From Microglena sp. YARC (lineage: Eukaryota; Chlorophyta; Chlorophyceae; Chlamydomonadales; Chlamydomonadaceae), in NCBI GenBank assembly GCA_022414725.1, contig CM039463.1, positions 59,400,326-59,464,325 on the forward strand: a DNA stretch of 64,000 bases, in the 5' to 3' direction. The notes below the pieces were generated by a model. The model saw nothing but the letters and a program-made list of their open reading frames with translations, did not search any database and was not told the origin of the DNA. Positions 25,776 through 52,850 of the stretch are shown piece by piece. Numbering within the stretch: the stretch's first letter is position 1; each line of letters starts with the position of its first letter. The position numbers and the translations under genes are program-made.

Positions 25776-26335
25776 GCTTACTTGCGTTGCCTTCCTGGTG
25801 GTTGGCCCCAGTGCAAGCAAACGGCTGGCAGCTTGAACCTCACGCCTCGTTAGAAGGAGTACTATTTACTTAGTTGTCTGCCTTCAAGATGGTTGCCCCC
25901 AGTGCAAGCAAACGGCTGGCGCCTTCAACCTCACGCCTCGTTAGAAGACGTACTATTTACTTAGTTGTCTGCCTTCAAGATGGTTGCCCCCAGTGCAAGC
26001 AAACGGCTGGCGCCTTCAACCTCACGCCTCGTTAGAAGACGTACTATTTACTTAGTTGTCTGCCTTCCTGATGGTTGGCCCCAGTGCAAGCAAACGGCTG
26101 GCCCCTTTAACCTCACGACTCGTAAGAAGACAAACTATTTACTTAGTTGTCTGCTTACCTGGTGGTTGGCCCCAGTGCAAGCAAACGGCTGGCACCTTGA
26201 ACCTCACGCCTCGTTAGAATACGTACTATTTACTTAGTTGTCTGCCTTCCTGATGGTTGCCCCCAGTGCAAGCAAACGGCTGGCACCTTGAACCTCACGC
26301 CTCGTTAGAAGACGTACTTTTTACTTAGTTCTTTG
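25776..26335. repeat. ~90-bp tandem array, 7 units
   Basis: The unit GGTTGCCCCCAGTGCAAGCA...TACTTAGTTGTCTGCCTTC is repeated seven times. The CTTAGTTGTYTGCCTTC phrase equals the stop-codon end of the CAS/TROL-like gene read on the plus strand, so the array seems to have grown from that gene end. One stray unit lies at 58380-58465. Confidence 0.9.
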
Positions 26336-26625
26336 CCTTCATAGCCACCTTGACCTCGCTCTCTTTGGTGGACCCACCAGTGGCCTTGGTGGATTGAAGC
26401 TTAGTTGTTTGCCTTCACAGCCATCTTGACCTCACCCTTTTTGGTGGGTTGAGAAACAAACAACTGAGCAACACCACCAGAGCAAAGAACTAAGGGGTTT
26501 TATCTTAGTTGTTTGCCTTCACAGCCACCTTTTCAACTCCCACTTTGGCCTCGCCCTCTTTGGCCTCTCCCACCTTGACCTCACCCTCTTTGGTGGACCC
26601 ACTGGTGGCCTTGGCGGATTGAAGC
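26327..26625 (-). repeat. partial copies of the gene's 3' coding end, about 3
   Basis: Just past the stop codon the last 30-120 bp of the E8 coding sequence are repeated: blocks starting at about 26327, 26400 and 26505 each contain the antisense of KVAVKANN-stop or close variants, followed by the TSGSTKEG-like end. They are non-coding relics of tandem duplication across the gene end. Confidence 0.8.
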
Positions 26626-29412
26626 TTAGTTGTTTGCCTTCACAGCCACCTTCTCAACTCCCACTTTGGCCTCGCCCTCTTTGGCCTCTCCAACCCTGAC
26701 CTCACCCTCTTTGGTGGACCCACTGGTGGCCTTGGCGGATGGAAGCTTGTCATCTGAAGTCTTATTCTCCTTGCTTGTAAGATCGCTGCTCTTCTTCCCA
26801 CCCATGATATTAATGACCTTGTCAATCTGAATATCAGCGACCTTTTCACCCTGGATATCAGTGCTCTTCTTCTCACCCTGAACATCAATGCTCTTCTTCT
26901 CACCCATGATATCAGTGCTCTTCGTCAGACCCATAAGATCAGACAACCTCTTCAGTCCCATAAAATCAGAGAACTTCCTCTCACCCTGACCATCAGTGTC
27001 CTTCTTCTCACCCTGGCCATCACTGCTCTTCTTCTCACTCTCAGACCTCTTCGAGGAATCTGATCCCCACATGCCTGCAGATGCGGCAGCAGAAGTTATT
27101 GAGGGGCCTGAAGCAGTAGGGGAAATAACAACACCCTTCTTAGGCGTAGGGACGGGCTTGTCAGCCATGATAGCAGCAGCAGCAGCAGGTATAGTAGAGG
27201 CAGCCGGGCCAGTGGAGGAGGCTGCAGCAGCAACGCTCTTGTTGGAGACAGGAACAGACTTGTCAGTCATGGTGGTGGCAGCAGCAGCAGCAATGGCGGA
27301 GGCAGGTACAGCAGAGGCGGCCGGGCCAGTGGTGGAGGCTGCAGCAGCAACACCCTTGTTGGAGACAGGAACAGATTTGTCAGCCATAGTGGTAGCAGCA
27401 GCAGCAGGAGCACCAGCGGCAGGGGCAGCAGCAGGGGCAGAAGAGGCAGCTGGGCCAGTGGAGGAGGCTGCAGCAGCAGCAGGTACAACACCACTTTTGT
27501 TGGAGACAGGGGCAGACTTGTCAGCAGTAGTGGTAGCAGCAGCAGCACCAGCAGCAGGGGCAGTAGAAGCAGCCATGCCAGTGGAGGAGGCTACAGCAGC
27601 AACACCCGTATTAGAGACAGAAACAGACTTGTCAGTCGTGGTCGCAGCAGCAGCAGCACGAGCACCAGTAGCAGGCGCAGCAGCAGGGGCAGCAGAGGTA
27701 ACCGGGCCAGTGGAGGAGGCGGCAACACCGACACCCGTGTTGGAGGCAGGAACAGACTTGTCAGTCATGGTTGAGGCAGCAGGTGCAGCAGAGGCAGTCG
27801 GGCTAATGGGGGAAGCTGAAGCAGCAGGAGGCACAACAGCACCCTTGTTATAAGTCGTTACAGACTTGTCAGCTGTGGTGGCAGCAGCAGCACCGGCAGC
27901 AGGGGCAGCAGAAGCAGCCGGGCCAGTGGAGGAGGCTACAGCAGCAACACCCGTGTTGGAGACAGGGACAGACTTGTCAGCTGTGGTGGCAGCAGCAGCA
28001 CCGGCAGCAGTAGCAGCAGAGGCAGTCGGGCTAATGGGGGAAGCTGCAGCAGCAGGAGGCACAACAACATTCTTGTTGGACGTGGGGACAAACTTGTCAG
28101 CCATGGTGGTTGCAGCAGCAGAAGCAGCAGCACCAGCAGTGGTAGCAGCAGCAGGAGCAGGGGCAGCAGAGGCAGCCTTGCTCATGGAAGAGGCGGCAGC
28201 AGCAGGAGGCACAATGCCCTTGTTATATGTAGGGACTGACTTGTCAGCCATGGTAGCGGCAGCAGCAGCACCGGCAGAGGCAGCCTTGCTCATTGGGGAG
28301 GCGTCAGCAGCAGGAGGCACATCACCCTTGTTACATGTAGGTGCAGACTTGTCAGCTGTGGTGGAAGCAGCAGAACTGGCAGCAGTAGCAGCAGCAGTAG
28401 CAACAGCTGCAGCAGCAGCAGCGGCGGCGGCGGCAGCAGTAGCAACAGGATCAGGATGGCCGTCAGGTGCAGCAGCCGCTGCGACATCAGAGGCATCCGA
28501 GCCGATGGGTGAGGCGACAGCAGCCGCAATGGCAGCATTGACCCCTGAAGGAGCTGCGGTGGCCGCGGCGTTGACAGCATCGTTGGCAGTCTCCAGAACC
28601 TTCTCAGCAGCTCCCTCCACTCCCTCCTTCTTCTCGGCCACAACAGCCCCCTTCTCTCCAGCTTCCTCCTTCTTCAAATCAACATTCTTCTCAGCCACAA
28701 CAGTCACCTTCTCTCCAGCTCCCTCCTTCACACCGACATTATTCTCAGCCACAACAGCCACCTTCTCTCTAGCTCCCTCCACTCCCTCCTTCTTCTCCGA
28801 TCCTTTCTTGACATCGACATCCTTCTCAGCCACAACAGCCACCTTCTCTCCAGCTTCCTCCTTCTTCAAATCAACATCCTTCTCCGCCACAACATCCACC
28901 TTCTCTCTAGCCCCCTCCTTCTTCACATCGACATCTTTCTCAGCAGCAGCAGCCACATTCTTGACAGCCTCCTCCTCCTCCTGCTCCTCAGCCTCACCAG
29001 CCTCCTCCCCCTCCTCCTCAGCTACTACGGCAACCATCTCCGTCTCCTCCCCCTCCTCTTCCTCCTCATCACTCATCTCCGCCTCCTCTCCCTCACTCTT
29101 CTCACCAGAATCCCCGGCCTTGTTGACACTTCCCTCCTCCTCCTCCCCCCCCCCCTCCTCTTCCTCGTCAGAATCCTCAACTTGCATCTCCTTGAAATCA
29201 GCAGGCATCCTAACCATCGTGCGTGACTTGGCACCCAGGCCGTCCATCATGTTGCTCAGGTCCCCCTTGTACGCCATGTAAATAAGGCCCACCACACCGA
29301 TGATCTGGAGCGTGTAATGGTAGTTGGTAATGGCAAGGAGAAGCATACTGGACCCCAAGGTGAAAGGGAAGGCTGCATCTGACTGGCTCCACTTGCTCCA
29401 TGACTCAGCGGT
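26626..29412 (-). CDS. E8: last exon, membrane segment plus long repetitive tail
   Basis: The acceptor TCTTGCAG| precedes TAESWSKWSQSD; the exon is open for 928 codons to TAA. Residues about 19-50 hold a hydrophobic segment (SSMLLLAITNYHYTLQIIGV then VGLIYMAYKG) like the second membrane helix of TROL. There follow an acidic Glu-rich block (about 70-155), Lys/Glu repeats of AEKDVDVKKE type (about 160-270), and about 450 residues of Ala-rich repeats each carrying ADKSVPVSNKGV or a variant. Then come decapeptide-like MGEKKSIDVQGEKK repeats and the end KVAVKANN. No ATG sits at the start of the frame, so it must be spliced. The antisense strand is also open for 471 codons, a result of GC-rich codon bias in Ala repeats. 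Confidence 0.85.
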   Translation of the reverse strand, partial: TAESWSKWSQSDAAFPFTLGSSMLLLAITNYHYTLQIIGVVGLIYMAYKGDLSNMMDGLGAKSRTMVRMPADFKEMQVEDSDEEEEGGGEEEEGSVNKAGDSGEKSEGEEAEMSDEEEEEGEETEMVAVVAEEEGEEAGEAEEQEEEEAVKNVAAAAEKDVDVKKEGAREKVDVVAEKDVDLKKEEAGEKVAVVAEKDVDVKKGSEKKEGVEGAREKVAVVAENNVGVKEGAGEKVTVVAEKNVDLKKEEAGEKGAVVAEKKEGVEGAAEKVLETANDAVNAAATAAPSGVNAAIAAAVASPIGSDASDVAAAAAPDGHPDPVATAAAAAAAAAAAVATAAATAASSAASTTADKSAPTCNKGDVPPAADASPMSKAASAGAAAAATMADKSVPTYNKGIVPPAAAASSMSKAASAAPAPAAATTAGAAASAAATTMADKFVPTSNKNVVVPPAAAASPISPTASAATAAGAAAATTADKSVPVSNTGVAAVASSTGPAASAAPAAGAAAATTADKSVTTYNKGAVVPPAASASPISPTASAAPAASTMTDKSVPASNTGVGVAASSTGPVTSAAPAAAPATGARAAAAATTTDKSVSVSNTGVAAVASSTGMAASTAPAAGAAAATTTADKSAPVSNKSGVVPAAAAASSTGPAASSAPAAAPAAGAPAAAATTMADKSVPVSNKGVAAAASTTGPAASAVPASAIAAAAATTMTDKSVPVSNKSVAAAASSTGPAASTIPAAAAAIMADKPVPTPKKGVVISPTASGPSITSAAASAGMWGSDSSKRSESEKKSSDGQGEKKDTDGQGERKFSDFMGLKRLSDLMGLTKSTDIMGEKKSIDVQGEKKSTDIQGEKVADIQIDKVINIMGGKKSSDLTSKENKTSDDKLPSAKATSGSTKEGEVRVGEAKEGEAKVGVEKVAVKANN

Positions 29413-29449
29413 CTGCAAGAGGTTTAGGGATTAGGTTTCAGGTTTCAGG

Positions 29450-30530
29450 GTTTAGGGCACAAGGCAGTAACGGCAACGATCTGTAGAGTGCAGTGGAAGT
29501 TGGTAATGGAACGTTGAAAGGGAAGGCTGCATCTGACTGGCTCCACTTGCTCCATGACTCAGCATTCTGCAAGAGGTTTCGGGATTGGGTTTCAGGGTTT
29601 CAGGATTAGGTTTTAGGTAGGGTTCAAGGTAATAACGGCAAGGATCTGTAGAGTGTGTACCGGTAGTTGATAGTGGCAAGTAGAACCAGAATGGTGCGCA
29701 AGGTGAAAGGGAAGACTGTATCTAAGCTGCTCCACTTGCTCAAAGACTCGGCAGTCTGCAAGAGGGTTTCAGGTTTCAGGGTTCAAGATAATAACGGCAA
29801 GGATCTGTAGAGTGTGTAGTGGTAGTTGGTAATAGCAAGAAGGATCAGAACGATGCCCAAGGTAAAAGGGAAGGCTGTATCTAAGCTGCTCCACTTCCTC
29901 GAAGACTCCAAAGTCTGCAAGAGGTTTTGGGGAATAGGTTTCAGGGTCCAAGGTAATAACGGTAAGGATCTGTAGGGTGTAGTGGTAGTTGATAGCGGCA
30001 AGTAGAACCAGAATGGTGCGCAAGGTGAAAGGGAAGACTGTATCTAAGCTGCTCCACTTGCTCCACGACGCGGCAGTCTGCAAGAGGGTCTCAGGTTTTA
30101 GGTTTAGGGTTCAAAGCAAGAATGGCAATGATCTGTAGGGTGTAGTGGTAGTTGATAGTGGCAAGTAGAACCAGAATGGTGCGCGCAAGGTGAAAGGGAG
30201 GGCTGTATCTAAGCTGCTCCACTTGCTCCATGACTCAGCAGTCTGCAAGAGGGTTTCAGGTTTTAGCTTTCAGGGTTCAAGGTAATAACGGCAATGATCT
30301 GTAGAGTGTGTAGTGGTCATTGATAGTGGCAAGTAGAACCAGAACGATGCCCAAGGTAAAAGGGAAGGCTGTATCTAAGCTGCTCCACTTGCTCCATGAC
30401 TCAGCAGTCTGCAAGGGTTTTTTGGGAATAGGTTTCAGGGATTAGGCTTTAGGGTTTAAGGTTTGGGATTGAAGGCAATGATCTGGAGTGTGTAGTGGTA
30501 GTTGGTAATGGCAAAGACAACCATAACGGA
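29450..30530 (-). repeat. decayed copies of the E8 acceptor and first ~110 bp, 7 units
   Basis: Units of about 155-190 bp each end, on the minus strand, in TCTTGCAG followed by a copy of the E8 start (AC.GC.GAGTC.TGGAGCAAGT...ACTACCACTACAC). The acceptors fall near 29568, 29757, 29915, 30078, 30243 and 30409, with a partial copy near 30480-30525 and a distant one at 31060-31110. The copies carry frame differences and would give truncated proteins if spliced in. Confidence 0.88.
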
Positions 30531-30569
30531 CAATATTGGAATTTCGCCCATTTTCTCCCATTTTGCCGG

Positions 30570-31168: not shown

Positions 31169-31282
31169 CAGCTTGCTGAAGATCTTATACTCATCCCTCA
31201 AGACCGTTTCAGGATCTGTGTCGTACTCCGATGAATCTTCTAGAACAGTGAGACCAGCCTCACTCCAACCATTGAAACCGCC
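31169..31282 (-). CDS. E7: end of the rhodanese fold
   Basis: Thirty-eight codons between the acceptor CCATTGCAG| and the donor AAGCTG|GTGAGC, phase 0 at both ends. It opens GGFNGWSEAGLTV, matching the conserved GG(F)xGxxGW turn that closes the rhodanese domain in CAS and TROL, and continues SSEYDTDPETVLRDEYKIF. It joins E6 (ending YIMK) and E8 (starting TAESW) in frame. This is the only copy of the exon carrying the full sequence; the adjacent array repeats only its first few codons. Confidence 0.85.
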
Positions 31283-31289
31283 CTGCAAT

Positions 31290-32470
31290 GGAGGTTGTGG
31301 TGTTGGTTGGTGGTTGGTGGTTGAGGTGGGGGTTGAAACCTCCCTGCAACAGAGGTTGTGGTGGTGGTTGGTGGTTGAAACCTCCCTGCAACGAAGGTTG
31401 TGGGGGTGGTTGGTGGTTGTGGTGGTGGTTGAAACCTCCCTGCAACAGAGGTTGTGGGGGTGGTTGGTGGTTGAGGTGGTTGTAGTGGTGGTTGAAACCG
31501 CCCTGCAACAGAGGTTGTGGTGGTGGTTGGTGGTTGAAGTGGTTGTGGTGGTGGTTGAAACCTCCCTGCAACAGAGGTTGTGGTGGTGGTTGGTGGTTGA
31601 GGTGGTTGTGGTGGGGGTTGAAACCTCCCTGCAACAAAGGTTGTGGTGATGGTTGGTGGTTGGTCGTTGAGGTGGTTGAGGTGGTGGTTGAAACCTGCCT
31701 GCAACAAAGGTTGTGGTGGTGGTTGGTGGTTGTGGTGGTGTTTGAAACCTCACTGCAACAGAGGTTGTGGTGTTGGTTGGTGGTTGAGGTGGTTGTAGTG
31801 GTGGTTGAAACCGCCCTGCAACAGAGGTTGTGGTGGTGGTTGGTGGTCTTAGGTGGTTGTGGTGGGGGTTGAAACCTCCCTGCAACAGAGGTAGTGGTGA
31901 TGGTTGGTGGTTGGTCGTTGAGGTGGTTGAGGTGGTGGTTGAAACCTGCCCGCAACAAAGGTTGTGGTGGTGGTTGGTGGTTGTGGTGGTGGTTGAAACC
32001 TCCCTGCAACAGAGGTTGTGGTGTTGGTTGGTGGTTGGTGGTTGAGGTGGTTGTAGTGGTGGTTATAACCTACCTGCAACAGAGGTTGTGGTGGTGGTTG
32101 GTGGTTGAGGTGGTTGTAGTGGTGGTTAAAACCTCCCTGCAACAGAGGTTGTGGTTGTGGTGGTGGTTGGTGGTTGAAACCTCCATGCAACAGAGGTTGT
32201 GGCGGTGGTTGAGGTGGTTGTCGTGGTGGTTGAAACCTCCCTGCAACAGAGGTTGTGGTTGGTGGTGGTTGAAACCTCCCTGCAACGGAGGTTGTGGTGT
32301 TGGTGGGTGGTTGAGGTGGTGGTTGAAACCTCCCTGCAACAGAGGTTGTGGCGGTGGTTGGTGGTTGGTGGTTGAGGTGGTGGTTGAAACCTCCCTGCAA
32401 CGGAGGTTGTGGTGTTGGTGGTTGGTGGTGGTGGTTGAAACCTCCCTACAATGGAGGTTGTGGTGTTGTG
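31290..32470 (-). repeat. ~60-bp minisatellite of decoy E7 acceptors, about 21 copies
   Basis: Each unit reads on the minus strand ...CCTCTGTTGCAG|GGAGGTTTCAACC, i.e. a pyrimidine-rich acceptor plus the first codons of E7 (GGF). The remainder of the unit is CCACCA/ACAACC sequence. Several frames on both strands stay open over hundreds of bases (QGGFNHHHNH type) only because of the repeat composition. Confidence 0.9.
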
Positions 32471-32699
32471 ATAGTGTTAGTGGTGACGACGTAGCTTTCT
32501 TTCTTAGCTACGTGCAGCAGCTTCTAGGCAGCTCCCTGACCTACCCACTGGGGATCCAACCCCCAAGATTTCAGCAGTGTACTTTTGTTGGAGTGGCAAC
32601 ACCATTCAAACTGAATCCTCAGTGTTGCTGGTTTGTGTCAGGAGTCCTACCTCCTGGGGTGAAAGTTCTTTCACAACTAAAAAAAATAGTGTTGGAAAG

Positions 32700-36599: not shown

Positions 36600-37336
36600 C
36601 ATGTTGCGCACATGGTAGATGAAACATTTCCCACCTTCATGAAGCACCACAGACAACACACAATTGATAACACAAGTATACATAATAATAAGTAATAAAA
36701 CAGACGACACAAGATAGATGAAATAAATATAAATAATAATAATAAATAGTAAAATAGACAACACAAGATTGATGAAACACACATAAAAGATAGATCAAAC
36801 AAATATAAATAAAAAAATAGAAAAATAAACAACACAAAATAAGTACAGCAAACGTATCAATGATAAAAGACAGTGAAACATACAAAACTAATATGTAACA
36901 CATTTCCCACCTTCATAATATACGCTTTCTCACATTCACGATGCGCCTAAGACAACACATCATAGATAACTAAATTATAAATAATAATAAATAATAAAAT
37001 AGGCAACACGAGATATATGAAACATTTCCCACCTCATGATGCACCACAGACTAAAAGTTGATCAAACAAGTAATGATAACGCCTGGTGGGGCGTGGTGTT
37101 GAGGGAGCCCGTCGTACGAGGGTGGGGAGCGGTCTCCTACATCAACTGGACAAGCTACCATCGACAACGACCTGCAACGCCAAGAGCGGCCAAAGGGGGA
37201 GTCGAACCCCCGAATCTTTGTCCTCAAGTGATCTGGTCTACCACTAGACCATTGTATATCACTGAAAGGGGCTGTCAAACAAGTATAAGTAATAACAAAG
37301 AATAATAAATGGTAAAATAGATAAATAATCTCCCAC
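36600..37336 (-). repeat. copies of the E6 end and donor, about 3, in AT-rich units
   Basis: CCCACCTTCATGA..., the antisense of the last E6 codons plus the donor GTGGGA, recurs near 36628, 36906 and 37028, each followed by ACAACAC and AT-rich repeat. One unit at 36905 keeps about 35 bp of the exon. The true exon end is at 37337. Confidence 0.75.
37186..37260 (-). other. tRNA-like sequence with perfect A and B boxes
   Basis: On the minus strand TGGTCTAGTGG (A box, 37241-37251) and GGTTCGACTCC (B box, 37198-37208) are perfect. The D stem (GGTC/GACC) and T stem (GGGGG/CCCCC) pair fully with correct spacing of 23 nt between them. The anticodon stem and acceptor stem do not pair, so it is a tRNA pseudogene or a tRNA-derived element and not a working tRNA. 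It lies inside an intron of the host gene on the same strand. Confidence 0.55.
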
Positions 37337-37450
37337 CTTCATGATATACGCCTTTTTCACACCACCCTCGATCTGGAGAATGCGCGCAATAGCTCGAGCA
37401 ACCTCAAAGTCATTGCCGCTGTCCATAATGATGACCTTACTCTTGGGTTT
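37337..37450 (-). CDS. E6: rhodanese core, catalytic-loop region
   Basis: Thirty-eight codons from the acceptor TACACAG| to the donor ATGAAG|GTGGGA, phase 0 to 0. It encodes KPKSKVIIMDSGNDFEVARA then IARILQIEGGVKKAYIMK. The beta-strand VIIMD followed by SGNDF aligns with the CAS/TROL equivalents (IIILDS, LYILDK), where active rhodaneses have a catalytic Cys. No Cys is present, so the domain is predicted to be catalytically inactive. Confidence 0.85.
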
Positions 37451-37564: not shown

Positions 37565-38350
37565 GTGTCCATAATGACGACCTTAATGTGGGTTTCTGTG
37601 TTCATTTTTTTTTATCATGAGTTTCAATCATGCGCGCAATAGAATGTGGGTTTCTGTGTAAAACCACACGTGTGTATGATGAAGACCTTACTCTCGGTTT
37701 TTGTGTAAAACGAAGGTTGAATGTGAGTTTCTGTTTTTTTCAGGTTTTTATCGTGAGTTCTGTTTTTTAACACAGGTTTCACGTGAGTTTCTGTGTTAAT
37801 CAAACTTTTGTAAAATGTGGGTTTCAGTGTAAAACCACATGTGTCCATGATGATGAGCTTTCTCTTGGGGCTCTGTGTAAAACAAAAAAGGGGTTTGATA
37901 TGTAGCAAGGGATTAAAAGTAGAGCAAGGGATTAACCACATGAGAGCTAAGTGGCCATGGTGATGAGCTAACACTTGGGTTTCTGTGTAAAAACAAACAA
38001 GGGATGGGCAGGAAGAGATTTGAAAACATAATGGGTTGGTGCTATTCAACACACAAGAGCTAAGTGGCCTTGATGATGGGCTTACACTAGGGGCTCTGTG
38101 TAAAACAAAGACAGGATGGGCAGGAAGAGATTTGAAAGCATAATGGGATGCTGCGATTCAACACACAAGAGCTAAGTGGCCTTGATGATGGGCTAACTCT
38201 AGGGGCTCTGTATAAAACAAACAAGGGATTTAATACGTAGCAAGGGATTTGATATTAACCACACAAGAACTAAGTGGCCATGATGATGGGCTTACTCTTG
38301 GGGCTCTGTTTTAAAAAAACACGACAAGGTTAATAGTTGATAGTTTTTTT
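37565..38350 (-). repeat. decayed copies of the E6 acceptor and first ~35 bp, about 8
   Basis: The antisense of ACACAGA..CCCAAGAGTAAG.TCATCATYATGGAC recurs near 37570, 37680, 37850, 37965, 38075, 38195 and 38285 at about 110-bp spacing, mixed with AAAACAAACAAGGGATT filler. Each retains an AG acceptor and the KSKVIIMD start in degenerate form. Confidence 0.75.
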
Positions 38351-38844: not shown

Positions 38845-39420
38845 CCACCAGCAATATTCACCTTGTCCAGTCCCTTCACCAGGGAAACCCAAACCTGAGA
38901 TCTGATACGACACCGGGACATGCATGTCCTATATGTTGGGCTTAGGTTTTTAGGGTGGACGAGGACACCACAACACACCACAGACCCCCCACCCCCACCC
39001 CCACCCACCCTCCACCCAACTCACACAGACTCCCACCAGCGATATTCACCTTTGTCCTGTCAGTTCATTAGCCACAGTCCTGAGATTGAGCAAATCCTCA
39101 CATGGCAACCACCAATCAGGCAATCACCAGTTACCAACCACCAATAACCAATAACTAGGGAGTGGCAACTAATATAAGTGTTTGAAAAACTAATATTAAC
39201 TAATATTATTATAGTGTCACAATAGCCGACCCCTACCAATAACCAGCAATATTCACCTTGTCCAGTTCATTCACCAGGGGGAAACAAACCTGAGATCTGA
39301 TACATCACACCACAGCCCCCCTCCACCCCCCCACCCCCAAACACACAGTCTCCCCACCAGCAATATTCACCTTGTCCAGTCCGTTCACCAGGGCAGCCGC
39401 GGTCCTAAGGGTGAGCAAGT
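38845..39420 (-). repeat. copies of the E5 3' half and donor, 4
   Basis: The antisense of CTGGTGAA.GGACTGGACAAGGTGAATATTGCTGG occurs near 38850, 39030, 39250 and 39360, each followed by lagging GTGGG/CCACC sequence. The copy at 39357-39425 preserves about 25 codons; the others are shorter or carry indels. The true exon is at 39595-39724. Confidence 0.85.
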
Positions 39421-39594
39421 CCTCACTCGTCACCCACCAACCACCAGCCACCAACCACCAGCCACCAACCAGCAACCAACTACCAACCACCAGCCACCAA
39501 CCAGCAACCACCAGCCAACAACCACCAGCCAGCAACCACCAGCCACCAGCCACCAACCACCCACTACCAGCCAACAACCACCAGCAATATTCAC

Positions 39595-39724
39595 CTTGTC
39601 CAGTCCATTCACCAGGGCAGCCACGGTCCTTAGAACGAGCAAGTCCTCGCTTGTCGCCCCCGCCCTCAGTCGTGGAGTGAGGATAGCCTCCGAGACAGAG
39701 AGGGGGAGAGCCACGGCTTGGAAC
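39595..39724 (-). CDS. E5: middle of the rhodanese domain
   Basis: From the acceptor TGTGTGCAG| to the donor GACAAG|GTGAAT: one base completing an Arg codon and then 43 codons, ending in phase 0. It encodes FQAVALPLSVSEAILTPRLR and ATSEDLLVLRTVAALVNGLDK. The VALPLSV stretch corresponds to the VISIPLEEL strand of CAS, and the following helices to its EIAALKISYLKK. A second donor, GCTG|GTGG, 13 nt downstream would break the frame to E6, so the first is preferred. Confidence 0.82.
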
Positions 39725-39769
39725 CTGCACACAGGTAATGAGGGCTTTAGGGATCAGGGTTTAGGGTTT

Positions 39770-40015
39770 ACAGTTCGAGACAGAGAGGGGGAGAGCCACG
39801 GCCTGGAACCTGCACACGGGTAGTGAGGGCTTTAGAGATCAGGGTTTAGGGTTTACAGTTCGAGACAGAGAGGGGGAGAGCCACGGCCTGGAACCTGCAC
39901 ACGGTAGTGAGGGCTTTAGAGATCAGGGTTTAGGGTTTACAGTTCGAGACAGAGAGGGGGAGAGCCACGGCCTGGAACCTGCACACGGGTAGTGAGGGCT
40001 TTAGGGTTCAGGGTC
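39770..40015 (-). repeat. copies of the E5 acceptor and first ~45 bp, 3
   Basis: The 85-bp unit AGTTCGAGACAGAGAGGGGG...GGAACCTGCACACGGGTAGT is repeated three times upstream of the true E5, each with the CTGCAC acceptor and the FQAVALPLSV start. Units are joined by TTTAGGGTTTA, which resembles telomere repeat but is part of the unit. Confidence 0.88.
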
Positions 40016-40169
40016 AAATATTTCAAACAGACAGTGGAGGTTGTTTTGGTTTATTTTGTTGTCTACATCTAATGATGCTTCATTTTATGAATCCTCACCC
40101 CAAAACCTACTCCCTTTTACCCAAACATGCTCATCAGCCTGACAAACAGCCTAACTGGCATTAAACCTT

Positions 40170-40800
40170 AAGCCAACCCAAGGAATCCATTCGCCTACCT
40201 GGCACCAAGCATCAAGCCAAGCCAAGGATTCCATTCTCCTACCTGGCACCAAACACCAAACATCAAGCCAAGCCAAGTAATTCTTTGCCTACCTGGCACC
40301 AAACCTCAAGGCAAGCCAAGTATTACATTTGCCTACCTGGCACCAAACACCAAACCTCAAGCCAAGCCAAGTAATTCTTTGCCTTCCTGGCACCAAACCT
40401 CAAGGCAAGCCAAGTATTACATTCGCCTACCTGGCACCAAGCATCAAGCCAAGCCAAAGATTCCATTTGCCTACCTGGCACCAATCACCAAACCTCAAGC
40501 CAAGCCAAATCTCAAGCCAAGGATTCCATTCGCCTACCTAGCACCAAACCTCGAGCCAAGCCAAGGATTCCATTCACCTACCTGGCACCAAATCTCAAGC
40601 CAAGCCAAAGATTCCATTTGCCTATCTGGCACCAAATCTCAAGCCAAGGATTCCATTCGCCACTCGCTCCTCCTCTTCTCGAATATCGATCAGCACCGCT
40701 TTCTGACCGTTGATCAATCTCAATCTCAAGTCAAGCCAAGCCAAGCCAAGGAATCCATTTGCCTACCTGACACCAAACCTCAAGCCAAGCCAAGCAATTC
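40170..40800 (-). repeat. ~45-bp array of E4 ends with donor, about 13 units
   Basis: Units of ATTCCATTCGCCTACCTGGCACCAAACCTCAAGCCAAGCCAAGG carry the antisense of the last E4 codons (ANGILGLRFGA) and the donor CCAG|GTAGGC, fused end to end. One longer unit (about 40646-40735) keeps the RKAVLIDIREEEER part too. Confidence 0.88.
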
Positions 40801-40809: not shown

Positions 40810-40981
40810 CTGGCACCAAATCTCAAGCCAAGGATTCCATTCGCCACTCGCTCCTCCTCCTCTCGAATATCGATCAGCACTGCCTTCCGACCGTTGATCA
40901 TGGTCTGGGTCTTCTCAGGGCTTAAGAAGCCAGCCCAGCCTCCAAACCTGGCTTGGTTGACAGCGCCGGCTATCGTGAGGC
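40810..40981 (-). CDS. E4: membrane-proximal linker and start of rhodanese fold
   Basis: 172 bp from the acceptor GTGTCACAG| to the donor GTGCCAG|GTAGGC, entering in phase 1 and leaving in phase 2, which matches E3 and E5. It encodes LTIAGAVNQARFGGWAGFL, then SPEKTQTMINGRKAVLIDIR and EEEERVANGILGLRFGA. LSPEKTQTMINGRKAVLIDIR is the first strand of a rhodanese fold, as LTPAQTLDLL...LMVDIR is in CAS. This is the only full-length copy at the locus. Confidence 0.85.
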
Positions 40982-40984: not shown

Positions 40985-42180
40985 TGACACACACGATGGT
41001 GGGCGGTGGTGGGTGTGGAGTGTGGTGGTGGTCGTGGTGGTTGGTAGGGAGCACAGGTGGGCGACGTGTGCGTGTGTGTGTGTGTGTGTGGTCGTGGGTG
41101 GGTGGGTGGTGTGGTGTGGTCGTGGGTGGGTGGGTGCGTGAGTGTGGTGGTGGTGGGTGGTGGGGTAAGAAACCGGCCCAACCACCAAACCTGGCTTGGT
41201 TGACAGCGCCGGCTATCGTGAGGCCTGTGGTAGGGAAAACAGGTGGGTGGTGGTGGGTGAGTGAGTGTGGTGGTGGTGGTCGTAGTGGTAGGTAGGGAGC
41301 ACAGGTGGGCGGTGGTCAGCGCGTGAGTACGATGGTGGTGAAGGTGGGATAAGAAGCCGGCCCAACCACCAAACCTGGCTTGGTTGACAGCGCCAGAGAT
41401 TGTGAGGCCTAGGGTAGGGAAGACAGGTGGGTGGTGGTGGGTGCGTGAGTGTAGAGGTGGTGGTGGGTGAGTGTGGTCATGGGTGGGTGGATGCGTGTGT
41501 GGTGGTGGTGGTGGTGGGTTACGAAGCCGGCCCAGGCACCAAACCTGGCTTGGTTGGCAGCGCCTGCGATTCTGAGGCCTAAGGTAGGGAACACAGGAGG
41601 GCGGTGGTGGGTGCGTGAGTGTAGTGGTGGTGGTGGGTGAGTGTGGTCGTGTGTGGGTGGGTGCGTGAGTGTAGCGGTGGTGGTGGTGGGGTAAGAAGCC
41701 GGCCCAACCACCAAACCTGGCTTGGTTGACAGCGCCGCCTATCGTGAGGCCTGTAACACACAAAATGGTGGGCGGTGGTGGGTGTGGAGTGTGGTGGTGG
41801 TCGTAGTGGTGGGTAGGGAGTACAGGTGGGTGGTGGTGGGTGCGTGAGTGTGGTCGTGGTGATGGTGGGGTAAGAAGCCGGCCCAACCACCAAACCTACC
41901 TTGGTTGACAGCGCCGGCTATCGTGAGGCCTATGACACAAAAAATGGTTAGTGGTGGTGGGCGTGTGAGTGTAATGGTGGTGGTGGTGGTGGTGGTGGTG
42001 GGCGTGTGAGTGTAGTGGTGGTAGTGGTGGTGGTGGTGGTGGGGTAAGAAGCCGACCCAGCCTCCAAACCTGGCTTGGTTGACAGCCCCAGCTATCGTGA
42101 GGCCTAGGGTAGGGAAAACAGGTGGTTGGTGGTGGGTGCGTGAGTGTGGTGGTGGTCGTGGGTGGTGGATAGTGGACACA
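40985..42180 (-). repeat. copies of the E4 acceptor and first ~60 bp, 6
   Basis: Antisense GCCTCACGATAGC.GGCGCTG and AACCAAGCCAGGTTTGG recur at acceptor positions near 41223, 41409, 41579, 41749, 41929 and 42103 (spacing 170-185 bp), each followed by CTTCTTACCCCACC and GGTGGT/CACACGC filler. All stop short of the LSPEKT part, so they are acceptor plus truncated exon. Confidence 0.92.
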
Positions 42181-43523: not shown

Positions 43524-43650
43524 TGTGACTCCTGCAGATGGCCAGCAGCTCAGGTGCGTGTGCAAATGAGAATCTGTAGCCAGGGTTGCTGGCCACAGGC
43601 AAGTAGCAAACCAGCTGAGCGACAACAGATTCATAAAGAAAGCGACAGGG
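43524..43650 (-). CDS. E3 (approximate): region before the rhodanese domain
   Basis: The most protein-like copy of the array encodes ESVVAQLVCYLPVASNPGYR, then FSFAHAPELLAICRSH, and reaches a donor CACA|GTACAT whose phase 1 fits E4. The start is uncertain: the usual acceptor of the array (CCCCAG| followed by AVNDSF) is altered in this copy, so the 5' part may come from an upstream copy. By position it matches the segment before the rhodanese domain in CAS/TROL, but I see no clear membrane helix in it alone. Confidence 0.5.
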
Positions 43651-46600
43651 TGAGAGGGTAGCGCCCAGGGGCATAGGCCACTGAGCGAACAATGGTCAGT
43701 GGTGGTGGGTGCGATGGTCCGTTCTTGGTGGTGTGGTTTTGTGCTGTGTTATAAATGAGGCGTGCCTGAGATCTGTCTAGCCAAGGGGGGTGCTGGTCCA
43801 CAGGTGGTGTGGGGGTTGGCGTGGTGGGTCGGAAGTAGCGGGGTTGGTTGAAAACCAGCTTGAGCGACAACAGATTCAAAAGAGTCGTTCACTGATGGTT
43901 TGGCCTGGGGTAGGGATCACATGAGGGCGGTGGTGGGTGTGGGTATGGTGGTGGTGGTGGTGGTGGTTGTACTCCTTGGGCTGTGCTTTGGTGCGTGTGT
44001 GATGAGATCTGTAGCCAGGGGGTGCTGGTCCACAGGCAAGTAGCTAACCAGCTGAGCAACAACAGATTCAAAAGAGTCGTTCAAGGTGGTGTGTGTGGTG
44101 GTGTGGTGGCTAGGGCCTGGGGTAGATCACATGAGGGCGGTGTGGTGGGTGTGGGTATGGTGGTGGTGGTGGTTGGTGGTGGGGGGGGAGGGGATTTTGC
44201 GTGTGATGAGATCTGTAGCCAGGGGGTGCTGGCCACAGATTTTTTAAGTAGCAAACCATTGGGCTGACGACAACAGATTCAAAAGAGTCGTCACTGTTTG
44301 AAGTGGCTGGGGTAGGGAACACATGAGGGCGGTGGTGGTGGCTGTGGGTATGTGGTGTGGTGGTTGGTGGTGGGTGCAGGGGGTGTGGTCCACAGGCAAG
44401 TGATAGGCGAAAAGAATTCAAAAGAGTCGTTCACCGGCCTGGGGTAGAGCCGGTGGTGGGTGTGGGTATGGTGGTGGTGGTGGTGGTGGTGGGTGCGTGT
44501 GTGATGAGATCTGTAGCCAGGGGGTGCTGGTCCACAGGCAAGTAGCTAACCAGCTGAGCGACAACAGATTCAAAAGAGTCGTTTCACGCCACAATTTTAT
44601 TTGTCTGGAGGCCTGGGGTAGGGATTCACATGAGGGCAGTTGGGCGTGTGGTGTGGGTGTGGTATGGTGGTGGTGGTGTTTGGTGGTGGTGGGTGTGTGA
44701 TGTAGCATGAATCTGTAGGCAGGAGCAGGAAGAACGGTGGCTGCAGTAACCACAGGGCAGTTAATAGTCGCAACCCAGCTGAGCGACACAGATTCAAAAG
44801 AGTCGTTTCACCGGCCTGGGGTAGGGAAAAGAGGGTAGGGGTGGTGGGTGTGGGTATGGTGGTGGTGGTGGTGGTGGTGGTGGTGGGTTTGTGTGACGGG
44901 GCTGTGATTGTAAGCATGTGGTGCTGGTCAACCTGGGGAAGTTTATTTAGCCTATCCAGCTGAGGGCACAACAGTATATTGTATGCGCAAATCGGATGAT
45001 CTGTCTCAGCGCTCTGTGGGGTTAGATTGGATACACATGAAGGGCGGTGGTGGGTGTGGGTATGAGATGGTGGTAGGTTTGGTTGGTGGGTGCGTGTGTA
45101 GTAAGAGATTTTAGCTCAGGGGTGCTCGGAGTTCCACGGCAAGGTAGCTAGCAGCTGAGCGACAACAGATTCAAAAGTCGTTTCAACGCTGGTCTGGGTA
45201 TGGGATTCAATGAGGGCGGTGGTGGGTGTGGGTATGGTGGCGTGTGGGTTGGTGTGGTGGTGCGTGTGTGATGAGATTGTAGCCAGGGGGTGCTGGTCCA
45301 CAGGCAAAGTAGGCTAACACGCTGAGCAACAACAGATCAAGAGAGTCGTTCACGCTGGGGTAGGGATCAATGAGGGGCGGTGGTTGGGTGTGGGTATGGT
45401 GGTGGTGTTGGTGGTGGGTGCGTGTGTGATGAGATCTGTAGCCAGGGGGTGCTGGTCCACAGGCAATCGCAAACCAGCTGAGCGACACAGATTCGAAAAG
45501 AGTCGTTCACGGCCTGGGGTAGGGAACACAAGAAGGGTGGGTGGTGGGTGGTGGGTATGGTGGGTGGGTGGTGGTGGTGGTGGTGGTGGGTGTGTGTGTG
45601 ATGAGATTCTGTAGCAGGGGGTGCTTGGGTCCACCAGGCAAGTAGCTAACCACTGAGCGACAACAGATTCAAAAGAGTCGTTCACGGCTGGGGTAGGGAT
45701 CACATGAGGGCGGTGGTGGGTGTGGGTATGGTGTGGTGGTGTTGGTGGTGGGTGGCGTGTTGATGAGATCTGTAAGCCACGGGGGTGCTGGTCACAAGGC
45801 AAGTAGCTAACCAGCTTGAGCGAAACAGATTCAACAAGCAAGTCGTTTCACGGGCCTGGGGTAGGGATCACATGAGGGCGGTGGGTGGGGTATGGGTATG
45901 GGTGGTGGTGGTGGTGGTGGGTGCGTGTGTGATGAGATCTGTAGCCAGGGGGTGCTGGTCACAGAGCAAGAGATCAGCTGACAACAACCAGATTCAAAAG
46001 GTCGTTCACACGGCTGGGGGTAAACGGGAATCACTGAGGGCGGTGGTGGGTTGGGGTATGGTGTGGTGGGTGGTGGTGGTGGCTGCGTGTCGATGGATCT
46101 GTGCCAGGGGGCTGCCGGTCAAGAGAAGTAGCTAACTGCAGCTGAGCACAACAGTATTAGAGTCGTTCACGCTGGGGTAGGGATACATGGATGCGGTGGT
46201 GGCTGTGGGTATGGTGGTGGTGGTGGGTGGTGGTGGGTGGTGTCGTGGATGAGACTTCTCGTAGCAGGCGGTCTGCGGTCTACAGGCAAGTAGCAACCGC
46301 TGCGCACAACGATTCCAACAAGATCGTTCACGAGGCCTGGGGTACGGGACACATTGAGGCGCGTGGTGGGTGTGGTACTGGTGGTCGGTGTTGGGTGGTT
46401 GGGGTTGCTGTGCTGATGAGAATCTTTGTCGCGCAGGGGTGGCTGGTCCCAAAGGCAGTAGCTATACCAGCCTGAGCGACAACCATTCAAAAGAGCGTTA
46501 CGCTGGGGTAGGGATCACATGAGGGCGGTGGTGGGTGTGGGTATGGGTGGTGGTGGTGGTGGTGGGTGCGTGTGTGATGAGATCTGTAGCCAGGGGGTGC

Positions 46601-47600
46601 TGGTCCACAGGCAAGTAGCTAACCAGCTGAGCAACAACAGATTCAAAAGTCGTTTTCACCCTGGCCTGGGGTAGGAACACATGAAGGGCGGTGGTGGTGT
46701 GGGTTCTGGTGGTGGTTTGGTGGTGGTGGTGGGTGCGTGTGTGATGAGATTGTAGCCAGGGGCGTGCTGGTCCAAGGCAACCACGTAGCTAACCAGCTGA
46801 GCGACAACAGATTCAAAAGAGTCGTTCACGGCCTGGGGTAGGGATAACATGAGGGGGTGGTGGGTGTGGTATGGGTGGTGGTGGTTGGGTGCGTGTGTGA
46901 TGAGATCTGTAGCAGGGGTTGCTGGTCCACAGGCAAGTAGCTAACCAGCTGAGCAACAACAGATTCAAAGAGTCGTTCACGGCTGGGGTAGGGACACATG
47001 AGGTGCGGTGGTGGGGTGTGGGTATGGTGGTGGTGGTGCGTGGTGGCGGTTTTGCGTTGTGTTGATGAGATTCTGTGCAGGGGTTGCTGGTCCCAGGACA
47101 AGTAGCTAAACCAGCTGGAGCAACAAAGATTCAAAACAGAGTCGTTCACGGCCTGGGGTAGGGAACACAAGAGTGTGGGTGGTGGGTGTGGGTATGGTGG
47201 TGGTGTTTTTGTGGAGGGATGCGTGGTGTGATGAGATCTGTAGCCAGGGGGTGCTGGTCCACAGGCAAGTAGCTAACCAGCTGAGGCAAAAGAACAGATT
47301 CAAAAGAGTCGTTCACGTGGGGTAGGGATCACATGAGGGCGGTGGTGGGTGTGGGTATTGGTGGTGGTGTTGGTGTGGGTGCGTGTGTGATAGAGATCTG
47401 TAGCCAGGGTGTGCTGGTCTACAGGCAAGTAGCTACGCAGTCTAGGCGACAACATGATTCAAAGATCGTTTCACGGCCTGGGGTAGGATACATGAGGGCG
47501 GTGGTGGGTGTGGGTATGGTGGTTGTGGTGGTGGTGCGTGCGTGTGTGATGAGATCTGTAGCCAGGGGGTGCTGGTCCATGGCCTGGGGTAGGGATCACA
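43650..47600 (-). repeat. ~150-200-bp array of E3-like exon copies, about 23
   Basis: Each unit has on the minus strand CCCTACCCCAG|GCCGTGAACGA, then TCTTTTGAATCTGTTGTCGC, CAGCTGGTTAGC and GTGGACCAGCACCCCCTGGC, then GTG-rich filler. That is an acceptor followed by up to 30 codons (AVNDSFESVVAQLVSYLPVD). Copies are seen near 43771, 44006, 44211, 44508, 44707, 44905, 45108, 45285, 45433, 45605 and so on to 47559. Many carry single-base indels. A poly-G run of about 100 bp follows at 47675-47780. Confidence 0.92.
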
Positions 47601-47704
47601 GGTGGGTGGTGGTGGGTGAGCGTGTGTACAATTGGTGGTGTGTGTGTGTGTGTGTGGTGTGTTGGTGTTGTAGGGAGGGGGGGGGGGGGGGGGGGGGGGG
47701 GGGT

Positions 47705-47761
<57 letters not shown>

Positions 47762-47939
47762 GTGGGGGGGGGGGGAGGGGGTAAGAAGACGCAGTGGCGT
47801 GGTGGGTGAATGTGTGTAAGTTGTGTTTGGTGTTCAGTGGTGGGGCAAGTTAGTGGTGGTGGTGGTTGTTGTGGTGGGTGCGTGTAGTGTGGTGGGTGAG
47901 TGGTGGGTGCATATAGTGGTGGTAAATCATGAATACCAA

Positions 47940-48785
47940 AATATTTACCCCAATACTTTATTTACCCCGATTATTTACCCAAATACAGGAAAACATTCTT
48001 AATCAATACACTGCACACTGAATAGTTTTTTTCTTCAAATCGTGAAAGTGGATTTTTCCTAGCTCTGTGCTTCTAAGCTCTCCGAGGGCAGCGTATTAGT
48101 GCTTTTTATAGCTTTGTTATAGCTTTTTGACGCTTTAAGGGGTACATTTAGGGCAAAAATAACACTTTGTTTTATCATTTCTAAGGCGATATTTTCGCAA
48201 AATGAGGCAAAACTAGCGATCGCTATGTATAGCGGTTAGAACAAAGCCTGCAAGCCTGTCCCCCATTATGGTACCCAATTATTTTACCCGTATATATATT
48301 TACCCCATACTTCCCCAAATAATTTAAATATTTTAAATATTTACCCATATTACCCCAAAACACTATTTTCAACCCAGACAAGGAATACGCCTTTCTTGAA
48401 GTTCAATCTCACCAGCACATTGTCACAGATGTTGCTCTTTGATCACCCAAATCGCTTTTTCTATTTATCAAATATAAATAATTTACCACCAATACATTAT
48501 TTACCCAATACATTATTTACCCCAATAACTTGCCGATACAGTTAATTTACCCTATACATTATTTACCCAATGACTTGCCCAAATACATTATTTACACCAA
48601 TTATGTTACCCATTATTTACCCAAATAGAGGAGTTAAAAAATTTCCCCCCTTTTAAAAATTCATGCAGTCACCAGCGCACTTGTCCCCATTATTTACACC
48701 CAAACAGGAATAAGCTTTATTGATCAACCACCCTGCGCACTGGTCCGCCCATTATTTACAACCAAAACAGGAATACTTTATTGAT
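47940..48785. repeat. ATTATTTACCC-rich intron with E2 donor copies
   Basis: AT-rich repeats of CAATACATTATTTACCC type. Degenerate copies of the E2 end and donor (TCACCAGCACA..GTC.GAGATGTTG, antisense) lie at about 48408-48440 and 48666-48760, with the flanking AGGAATAC.CTTTATTGATCAA. Confidence 0.75.
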
Positions 48786-48793
48786 CAACTCAC

Positions 48794-49835
48794 CAGCACA
48801 CCGTCGGAGATGTTGGTATCGGCGCCCAAAACAGCCGTAGTGGAAGAATCAGTGACAGCTTCCATCTTACTGGAGAGAGCATCTTCAACAGACTCAACCT
48901 TTTCCGCAGCTGAGCTTCCCATTTCAGAAAAACTGGTGCTGGTGTTGGTCTTGAGTTCAGCAGCCTGATCTGAGAGCCTTTCAAATTTGGCTGGGATGTC
49001 TAGGCTGGTGGGGGGCTCTGGAACTGTCTCCGGGACAGCTGTCTGGCCTGCCTCCACTCCTGCCTTAGTGGCCTTGGTTCTTTTCGGAGACGGACCTCAC
49101 TACTGGCTCCCTTGGCTTTGGTTGCGGTTTCGGAGACAGCCTCACCACTGCTCCGTGGCTTTGGTTTGTGGTTTCAAAGACGGCCTTCACCACTGGCTCC
49201 GTGGCTTTGGTCGCGGTTTCTGAGACAGCCTCCACCACTGGCTCTGTGGCTTTGGTTGTGGTTTCGGAGACAGTCTCAACCACTGGCTCGGAGCCGTGGG
49301 TATGGTTTCCGGTAGACAGCCTCCACCACTGGCTTGGTGGCCTTGGGTATGGTCTCGGAGGCAGCCTCGACCACTGGCTCGGTGGCCTTAGAAATGGTTT
49401 CGGAGACGGCCTCCACCACAGTGTCAGCAACTTTGGTTGTGGTCTCGAGGGGAGCAACAGACCCCACGATTGAATCAGCGGCTTTGCTGGTTTCGGAGAT
49501 GGCCTCCACAATGGTATCAGCAACTTTGGTTGCGGTTTCGGCAACAGACCCAACAATTGAATCAGCGGCTTTGCTGGTTTCGGAGATGGCCTCCAAAACG
49601 GTATCAGCGGCTGTGTTGGTTTCGGAGACGGCCTGCACCACTGGCTCACTAGGGACATCAACCACTGCCACAGGGGGGCTTTCAGCTACAACCTCAGCTA
49701 CAGGAGTGCTATCAGCTACAACCTCAGCTACAGGGCTCGCAGCCATGGGGATATCCTTGGGAACCTGGTCGGAAGCTGCAGAGCTGATGAGTGGCTCGGC
49801 AGTTGTCTCAGTAGCACGCAGCTTCATGCTGGGTC
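48794..49835 (-). CDS. E2: N-terminal helical repeat region
   Basis: The acceptor TTTGGTCTGCAG| at 49836 precedes PSMKLRATETTAEPL; the donor CTG|GTGAGT at 48793 follows DTNISDGVL in phase 0. In between are 15-residue repeats of VVEAVSETTTKATEP and SIVGSVAETATKVADTI type, then SDQAAELKTNTSTSFSEMGS. The Ala/Thr/Val helical repeats resemble the lumenal N-terminal half of CAS. The frame breaks near 49308 (an extra base in GGTTTCCGGTAG) and again near 49100-49150, so two or more indels are present, which are either assembly errors or real damage. Confidence 0.7.
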
Positions 49836-49917
49836 CTGCAGACCAAAGATTTAGCAGCGCACATTGAGGGTGGACATGGAGAGCTATACTACTACATTTG
49901 TGTTGCAAATGTTGCAA

Positions 49918-50530: not shown

Positions 50531-50799
50531 AAACAACCGAAGTGGGAACTCATTACTTATTGAAACCAACAACAACATACATCGCGAAGGCCCATTTCCA
50601 ACATAACTTTCACACCTGAGCGTCTCACTGGCGTCGCACCGAGTTGCTCAATCCACACAAAAAAGACACACCAAGTCACAAACAAACGACAAGACACAAA
50701 AAAAAGTGGCTCACCATGGCAAAAAATGATGCTTTTTTATGATGCTTTTTTTTGCTTTTTGCTTTTTTTCTCTGTCGTATGCAGCACACTTCCGCTTTG

Positions 50800-50960
50800 T
50801 TGGGGACCAGTTAACCAAACCAAACCAAGCCAAACCAAACCAAACCAAGCCCAACACCAAGTTAACCAAAACCAAACAAACCAAGCCAAGCCAAACCAAG
50901 CCAACACCAAGTTAACCAAACCAAACCAAGCCAAACCAAACCAAACCAAGCCAAACATAT
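50800..50960. repeat. CCAAACCAAG simple repeat
   Basis: CCAAACCAAACCAAGCCAA units are interrupted by AACACCAAGTTAACC. This is intron or upstream sequence of the CAS/TROL-like gene; minus-strand Leu/Trp/Phe-rich frames are artefacts. Confidence 0.9.
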
Positions 50961-51099
50961 TTTTAAGTTGTGTGTGTCCCTTCTATCAGCCCCTCCTACC
51001 TAAGGTTCATCTTGACTGTTGGAGGATCAGAGCTCTTTTTCACAATCAGTCAAAAACAAACAGAAAAGTGACTTTGATCAAATCCAAATGTAAGACCAC

Positions 51100-52850
51100 A
51101 AATGGATAGAGCTCGTCGAGGGGGTCACTTTAGACCCTTCATTGACCCCCTAATTATAATTTCTGAATGAGAAATGTGCTTTTTTCTTTGGGGGGGGGGG
51201 GGGGGGGGGGGGGAGGCAGATTACAAAAACTTCCGACGTAGGTATATGAAAAAAACTTCCTCACTACCCCCAGGAAAAAAGACAGGCAACGTCACAACCA
51301 AACAGAAAAGTACAAAAAAAGTGGCTCACCATGTTGACGGTGGATGGGACCCTGAATCCTGAGGCCCTGCAGAACATGTGTGAAAATTGGTTTGAAGAAG
51401 GTTGACATTCAGGTCAGAACTCTGGCAGAGTTGGTTGGTTATTGGTTGAGAATCGCAACTTTCATACAATTTGGTTGTTTACGCTTTCCCACGGGGCGTG
51501 GGGTTGAAGGAAGCTTCCCCTTCGCTTGCATTGACGAATGGTTACTGCTGGTTTGGCTTTTGCAGACTGCTACTGCGCCTGAGATCTGACTACCGCGCGA
51601 CAGCGCGGAGGAAAAGTTCTCGGCCTCTTCCAATGTGGCAGGTGGGCAATCGTGAACCTAGCAACAGGTTTGAACCCACGACCTGTCAGTCAAAGCTGGT
51701 ACTACAATATCAACCAAACCTGTGCTCTGATATTAGATTGGACATGCAAGTCCTATGTGTTGGGTTTAGGGTGAACGAGGACACCACACCACATCACACC
51801 AGACGCCCCTCCCCCCTCCAAACCAACCCACCCCAACCCACACAGGCTCCCATTACCTCCCCACCACACCCCAACCCCCATTTCCACTCCCATGCCAACC
51901 CCCCCACCCGCTGCAAACCCCATTCACTCCCACACCCACTCCACCCGCATCCCCCACCCCCTCCCACTCCACACCCCCACCAGCTAACCCATACACACAC
52001 ACACACACCCTCCAACTCCCCACCACCCAACCCCATACACTCCCCTCCACTCCAACCCCTCACCCCACCACCCAACTGATCCGACCAACCCCAGAGCCCT
52101 GGCCCCAAATGGCTCCCCCTTCCACCCATCCACTGTCGCTCTTCGACGAAAATGACCTGATTCGACGAAGCGCTTTGAAGTCCATGAGGTGAAGACGTAT
52201 CACTGTACGAAGATTGGAACATTCCATGTTGGTGGTCTCGGCTGTCGATCTCGACCGATTTCTTTACGTCTACTGCTCTTTACCCGAAGTTGCGGCAGGG
52301 CACTTGAGTCGAGAAGCGATACCCATGGTCAATGAACGGATGAATGAGCGGATGGGCAGATGGATGGGTCTGGGGAAAGGGGTGGGCAGATATGCAAGAT
52401 TGACGGTACCATGCAAGTATCGAGATACGGTAGTAGTAGAATATACCCATCCCACCCAAGCCATCGTGACGAACGAGCGCGTGCGCATGGGTCTATTGTC
52501 GGCAACGGGGGGAGGGGGGGAGTAATTGGGTCGATACTTTTGCCATGCACGCCTGGAGGACATCAGGAGGACACTTACATGGTAGTAGGGATTGTCGATT
52601 CCACCCAACCCAACCCAACTCAACCCATACCAACCCATTCCAAGCTTAAGGCTTACAATCTGGACTTTTTGTTGAGCTCCGGAAAGGCGCATGGAGCCCC
52701 CTCGTCGAAGCGAGCGCTGTACAAGCATGCCGCTCATTATGACCTGTAGTGTGTTGTTTAGTTTGTGGGGTGTGTTGGTGAGGCGGTCACAGCTGCCGTG
52801 AGTGCTTTGTGTCGAATCTCCAGACTGCAAGTAAAGGAATCCCGAACTTA
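51100..52850 (+). other. low-complexity region with weak plus-strand exon candidates
   Basis: C-rich CCCCACC tracts dominate 51780-52080. Possible plus-strand coding pieces are SLFDENDLIRRSALKSM (about 52138-52190, next to a donor-like GAG|GTGAAG), VSAVDLDRFLYVYCSLPEVA (52227-52290), and a possible terminal exon KAYNLDFLLSSGKAHGAPSS ending YKHAAHYDL-stop at 52749. They are in different frames and I cannot join them or name a family. A poly-G run sits at about 51190-51213. Confidence 0.25.
51330..51366 (-). CDS. possible E1 mini-exon (37 bp)
   Basis: It lies between TGTTCTGCAG| and the donor CAACATG|GTGAGC. A copy of the donor with flanking GTGGCTCACCATGG occurs at about 50708-50722, the same boundary-copy pattern seen in the rest of the gene. 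The reading frame that fits E2 is not convincing as a transit peptide, and the true start codon is not identified. Confidence 0.3.

Follow-up and report, generated by a model that had tools for sequence, protein, structure and literature searches.

Mirage-like tandem copies of exon boundaries in the introns of a green-alga genome

The introns of a minus-strand gene in the window (the whole stretch of DNA analysed, 64,000 nucleotides) hold tandem copies of the adjoining exon edge together with its splice site. The gene resembles CAS/TROL-like rhodanese genes, and copies of the same kind occur in most introns of a sample drawn from the same genome. The duplicated units include splice junctions no more often than they include points inside introns, the exon parts of the copies drift out of frame, and the repeats inside coding exons have periods that are nearly all divisible by three. 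By their structure the arrays can be filed as mirages, and we consider it likely that frequent tandem duplication that is blind to junctions, combined with a selective filter, formed these mirage minisatellites. Exon-boundary minisatellites had concerned a few lancelet genes and now extend to most sampled introns of a green-alga genome. Two old questions can thus be put to the test at scale: by what means the spliceosome selects one of several near-identical sites, and how introns lengthen.

Junction copies within a CAS/TROL-like gene

The name CAS/TROL is putative and follows the initial annotation and a resemblance of the product to CAS/TROL proteins of plants and algae; it is accompanied by a match to the Pfam Rhodanese domain. 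Exons E4 to E8 were joined through GT/AG sites into a single open frame of 1105 residues, with one placeholder base in front representing the last base of E3. The earlier proposal of one working copy per exon, with matching phases, is supported for E4 to E8. The Rhodanese match (E 4.1e-06) spans E4 (40810..40981), E5 (39595..39724), E6 (37337..37450) and E7 (31169..31282; all coordinates are those of the window and all features of this gene are on the minus strand). Since this single match crosses them, the splices from E4 to E7 are independently supported. E7 has an alternative donor 24 nt further on, and either donor preserves the frame. The nearest solved chain to the product is the rhodanese-domain protein 8tfs (E 1.9e-06), and the partly joined model found no homologue at E<=0.001 among the 8000 candidates sharing most words with it. 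The last coding exon, E8 (26626..29412), contains many in-frame repeats. E2 (48794..49835) contains in-frame coding repeats and a frame-disrupted stretch, where the reading frame shifts several times within about 250 bp of the coding repeat (49060-49330, or ~49.33-49.06 kb), perhaps through consensus error, an extra intron or damage being the other readings. E1 is a candidate only. Candidate E3 (43524..43680) is uncertain, as it was fitted by phase alone and the last copy of the E3 array is without an acceptor.

Each exon with its flanks and each junction was searched against the window using BLASTN (E<=0.01), with the working copy excluded. This revealed 56 junction-spanning copies at nine junctions, every one of which shares the gene's strand and lies to the intron side of its own junction. 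At acceptors, the search returned 6 copies for E4 (41166..42172, with 59-63 nt of exon), 3 for E5 (39776..40014, 34 nt of exon, unit ~85 bp), 5 for E6 (37566..38109, 26-31 nt of exon; 8 by nhmmer), 20 for E7 (31333..32484, 7-11 nt of exon) and 6 for E8 (29515..30454, 52 to 113 nt of exon, unit ~163 bp). At donors, there was 1 copy for E2 (48361..48434), 8 for E4 (40149..40716, unit ~44 bp; 13 by nhmmer), 4 for E5 (38845..39435) and 3 for E6 (36616..37040; 1 at a stricter cut-off). Identity between copies and working junction ranges from 71 to 98%. The copies have family-specific edges in common, belong to units of about 40 to 176 bp and contain only one exon end each. Within the introns, donor copies sit toward the 5' end and acceptor copies toward the 3' end. 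The same search detected no junction copy in the window for the E7 donor, the E2 acceptor, the candidate E1 donor or the candidate E3 points. Probes from the sampled middles of E5, E6 and E7 gave 0 copies in the window and that of E4 at most one, and E2 and E8 carry coding repeats of their own. On the E3 side, an array of units made up of an intron end and an exon-like start (43553..47583, period ~167; nhmmer and TRF) occupies 24 places by nhmmer, the last of which overlaps candidate E3, and many single-base indels were seen among its copies. The coding end with its stop codon is also copied downstream (26324..26627), first as 124 nt at 96.8% identity and then as shorter pieces. An alpha-tubulin exon probe had 0 BLASTN matches in the window, and TRF reported no array in that gene.

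These results confirm what the initial annotation had described, namely exon-boundary copies in the introns, a stop-codon end copied downstream and an alpha-tubulin gene lacking such repeats. Its copy counts agree with ours once the working copy is added, the count of about nine at the E6 acceptor agreeing by nhmmer only (8 plus the working copy). The 56 copies also support its view that tandem duplication over splice junctions has left many decoy sites. Separately, telomere-like CCCTAAACCC motifs lie within the acceptor-side units of E5 and E8 (29420-29660 and 39740-40014).

Junction copies in other genes of the genome

The genome searched comprises 568 Mb in 2390 contigs. Introns were kept where the junctions were exact, that is, where the profile positions on both sides agreed within about 1 residue and the GT/AG sites were in phase. 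For CCT/Cpn60 genes, 40 adjacent exon pairs yielded 22 that were resolved and 19 that were kept. A first kinesin set of 15 pairs gave 10 resolved and 8 kept, and a further 8 kinesin pairs were all resolved, with 7 kept. The CAS/TROL-like gene contributed only four introns, from E4 to E8. Using 130-nt flanks, junction copies were found in 27/38 introns and 18/22 genes (CCT, kinesin and CAS). At this flank length 37/76 junctions had copies, and at 70-nt flanks 36/76.

The CCT set was picked without sight of the repeats and showed copies at 9/19 introns and 13/38 junctions. Several copies at profile-matched exon edges were present in 8 of the 11 CCT/Cpn60 genes, a single copy in one and none in two. 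Kinesin genes also carry junction copies, at a rate that may be too high because these genes were selected for compactness from a list already showing some repeats. Contigs C1, C2, C3 and C5 are among those with genes that show the pattern. Hence the phenomenon is not confined to the CAS/TROL-like gene, as had been supposed at first, and exon-edge duplication looks common in this genome.

Two further observations concern the kinesins. Two of the kinesin profile matches (G000:C2:15919754-15920484 and C1:145291615-145292182) contain the same domain end two or three times consecutively, so a protein profile search is already enough to reveal such copies. The kinesin loci L055 (C1:190743900) and L056 (C1:190769600), about 26 kb apart, look like recent copies of each other since their donor and acceptor sequences are identical.

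Divergence of the copies and decoy splice sites

When 118 copies were compared with their working copies, codon positions 1+2 differed at 8.9% (355/3985), position 3 at 19.0% (374/1965), intron sites at 12.8% (1107/8671) and splice letters at 7.2% (17/235). In the exon parts, 42/43 indels break the frame. The roughly twofold excess at position 3 over positions 1+2 is the expectation for freely drifting copies combined with mainly silent change in the exon. Pure drift on both sides would predict near-equality between intron sites and third positions; the intron figure is lower, and the low-divergence E7 array weighs heavily in it. The copies thus drift largely like non-coding DNA, and neutrality describes them well, though not perfectly. 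Each copy gives a coding exon edge a largely unconstrained counterpart, and this provides a within-gene clock.

Repeats inside the coding exons behave differently from those elsewhere in the window. Among TRF rows with periods >=10 bp lying wholly inside E2 or E8, the period is divisible by three in 24/26 (the rows overlap and hence are not independent), and the two exceptions overlie the frame-disrupted stretch of E2. For rows in the rest of the window, the counts over the three residues are 52/50/49. The best reading is that selection acts as a filter, which keeps duplications in frame within coding exons and lets them stand in introns and over junctions. The share of sequence lying in TRF arrays is 59% for the introns between E2 and E8, 74% for E8, 15% for the remaining window (1-26000 and 51500-64000) and zero for the tubulin gene. 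In four arbitrary stretches elsewhere, the share was 48, 33, 5 and 19%, the first stretch including 1000 N.

Most splice letters are kept in the copies (218/235, in 118 copies). Site scores were learned from the sampled introns, leaving one out. By these scores, 48/118 decoys (20/33 donors, 28/85 acceptors) equalled or surpassed their own working site, and decoys this strong were present at 24 of the 37 junctions that have copies. Local site strength alone is therefore insufficient for site choice. The cell must somehow ignore the spare splice sites, and how it chooses is the interesting question. Given the placement of donor copies toward the 5' end and acceptor copies toward the 3' end, the outer sites would have the advantage if real exons were recognised as units, and it is probably in this way that splicing ignores the decoys.

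Alternatively, the decoys could be functional, serving as redundant or stepping-stone acceptors or tuning the splicing of long introns. Such a role is suggested by the acceptor decoys that match or exceed the working site, by the greater frequency of copies at acceptors than at donors (23/38 vs 13/38, p 0.04) and by the acceptor AG letters, changed in 7/169 where codon positions 1+2 in those copies differ at 9.5% (difference of -0.094 to -0.013 by bootstrap). However, within single arrays the AG/GT columns show no general excess of conservation over the others, the exon parts are frame-broken, and donor GT letters are changed in 10/66, compared to 7.6% at positions 1+2 of the same copies, with a bootstrap interval that includes zero. 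We regard functional decoys as an unlikely explanation of the arrays. General protection of AG/GT in decoys had first looked strong (107/112 letters), and was discarded when alignments within arrays gave no general excess and the pooled 17/235 changes proved to be near the rate of codon positions 1+2. In these within-array alignments the E4 acceptor profile also caught units of the E3 array via a shared CCACC tract, making that row mixed, and nhmmer found no copies for the E6 donor row.

Donors (13/38) were also duplicated less often than points inside introns (p 0.01), so junction duplications are not all tolerated alike. This asymmetry between donors and acceptors, together with the better-kept acceptor AG, is a hint that comes from uncorrected tests on related copies. 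One tentative possibility is that splicing in this alga deals differently with the two kinds: decoy acceptors would be tolerated and even retained, perhaps serving as intermediate steps in the removal of long repetitive introns, whereas decoy donors would be selected against and erode. If true, the genome, rich in duplicated splice sites, would be a natural experiment on how the spliceosome finds the right end.

Placement and origin of the duplications

As a control, the identical search was centred on random positions in these introns, each 100 nt or more from the intron's ends. Duplicated random points numbered 111/285 for CCT, 42/60 for CAS and 85/120 and 79/105 for the two kinesin sets; the corresponding junctions numbered 13/38, 6/8, 9/16 and 8/14. 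Pooled, 36/76 junctions and 317/570 random intron points lay in duplicated units (Fisher p 0.18), the p values here being rough because points within one intron are non-independent. For exon-middle points the figure was 59/380. The junction share is no higher than that of intron points, so the units cross junctions much like any intron point. In the CCT genes, coverage is level in the intron at 0.38-0.47, is 0.44 in the last 10 nt and 0.39 in the first 10 nt of the exon, and is 0.21 at 90-120 nt. The exon-side edges of the units are spread over 11 to 129 nt at 30 junctions (search reach 130 nt). The random-point test replaced a hand estimate of expected junction spanning on collapsed introns, which was dropped because it depended on ancestral intron lengths. 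The initial annotation had suggested that duplication repeatedly starts across splice junctions. The refutation test that it had itself set, applied to the sample, went against this suggestion, since junctions were not enriched and edges were scattered. Duplication aimed at junctions is not detectable in these data.

A junction-targeted process tied to splicing or transcription, such as RNA-templated repair, R-loops at exon ends or AG/GT microhomology, could appeal to the 6/8 CAS junctions and the 7/8 acceptors of the first kinesin set that lie within arrays. Acceptor-side coverage also climbs from 0.41 to 0.53 approaching the junction (19 CCT introns), which may reflect a slight acceptor preference of the duplication. 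Against this, random intron points are duplicated as often as junctions, donors fall below them and the exon-side edges follow no fixed position. Collectively, these results make targeting improbable.

In the explanation that we consider likely, junction-blind duplication followed by a selective filter, arrays would be founded by short tandem duplications with ends anywhere in the gene. Where a duplication straddles a junction, the original exon would stay intact at the outer edge and the extra copy would become intron; a duplication of this kind would be nearly harmless and could thus persist and be amplified. Within coding exons, duplications would survive mainly at lengths divisible by three. 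The junction copies would then be a by-product of duplication plus filter, drifting as non-coding DNA. The duplication itself may have proceeded by slippage, unequal exchange or break repair, and the ancestral introns were presumably short.

An assembly or consensus artefact in repetitive DNA is scarcely credible. The single-base indels among the E3 copies and the frame changes in E2 do look like consensus errors, but the junction copies differ from the working junction to the extent given above while sharing family-specific edges, and the pattern recurs on several contigs. Dispersed intron elements (introners) or whole tandem duplication of exons for alternative use would account for repeated intron sequence in many genes, but are most improbable, as the arrays copy their own gene's junction (119/119 copies in that junction's intron, as 34/34, 43/43, 30/30 and 12/12, searched only inside the fetched loci) and, where a duplicated exon would have both splice sites and an open frame, the copies have one exon end, reach 11-129 nt into the exon (search reach 130 nt) and do not keep the frame.

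The original description of mirages reportedly concerned amphioxus Adh3. In the passages considered here, mirages are minisatellite-like repeats of exon-intron boundaries in amphioxus Adh3, the globin genes BflGb6 and BflGb9, TnC and PGBD5, with units of 10-160 bp that are 81-100% identical in BflGb6 (PMC3087553, PMC3902484; TnC and PGBD5 as further cases in the latter). For the globin mirages, these passages give units of 150-160 bp, many AG/GT kept and array instability, and RT-PCR suggests regular splicing (PMC3087553). As far as the passages go, the algal arrays are alike in having tandem units that span one boundary, at either an acceptor or a donor, and in retaining many AG/GT. The unit spans the boundary in the 56 copies at nine CAS junctions and at 36/76 sampled junctions, and many but not all copies keep AG/GT. 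On this structural evidence the algal arrays are filed as mirages, and the earlier statement that no such system has been described gives way to the amphioxus cases (PMC3087553, PMC3902484). What is new is the host, which belongs to another kingdom, and the scale, with as many as 20-24 copies, several junctions in one gene and 27/38 sampled introns. Normal splicing, length polymorphism and somatic instability of the array are, in the same passages, amphioxus evidence, whereas the alga is known here from the sequence of one assembly. In the literature searched, which had most subscription journals outside its scope, we recognised no report of mirages outside amphioxus.

Other systems share single aspects. 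Intron gain by tandem genomic duplication (the Rogers model; Gao and Lynch 2009; Hellsten 2011; as related in passages of PMC3443670 and PMC3087553) likewise involves in-gene tandem duplication that multiplies splice signals. In that model, duplication of an exonic AGGT creates a new intron, whereas the algal introns have extra copies of their own ends. In Chlamydomonas and Volvox, tandem-repeat density is highest in introns and coding sequence and greater near intron-exon junctions, and the survey passages considered make no mention of units that include exon and splice site (PMC3887541). Dual-specific splice sites in tandem repeats, for example in human UBC, are also splice sites multiplied by repetition. 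According to the part considered (PMC10809524), the repeat there is coding and the sites are used, whereas the algal copies lie outside the coding sequence and are not known to take part in splicing.

Several other features were observed in the window. Scans for tRNA and Rfam families found nothing in it. Two Copia-like element copies with RVT_2, rve and gag_pre-integrs domains lie on the minus strand at 9533-12550 and 17553-20713. Near them one set of tandem arrays is present twice, ~7.3 kb apart (14443-17208 and 21762-24533), which points to a large near-tandem duplication with its own minisatellites. RVT_1 reverse transcriptase fragments lie on the plus strand at 60030-62786, where one protein stretch occurs twice, at a spacing of ~1.26 kb (61123-61527 and inside 61800-62786). 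Chain 6u42, which we take to be a Chlamydomonas entry, is the best match to the window's alpha-tubulin, with 950 bits compared to 908 for the next chain, which makes a chlorophyte source probable. A mostly-G run of 109 bp occupies 47673-47781.
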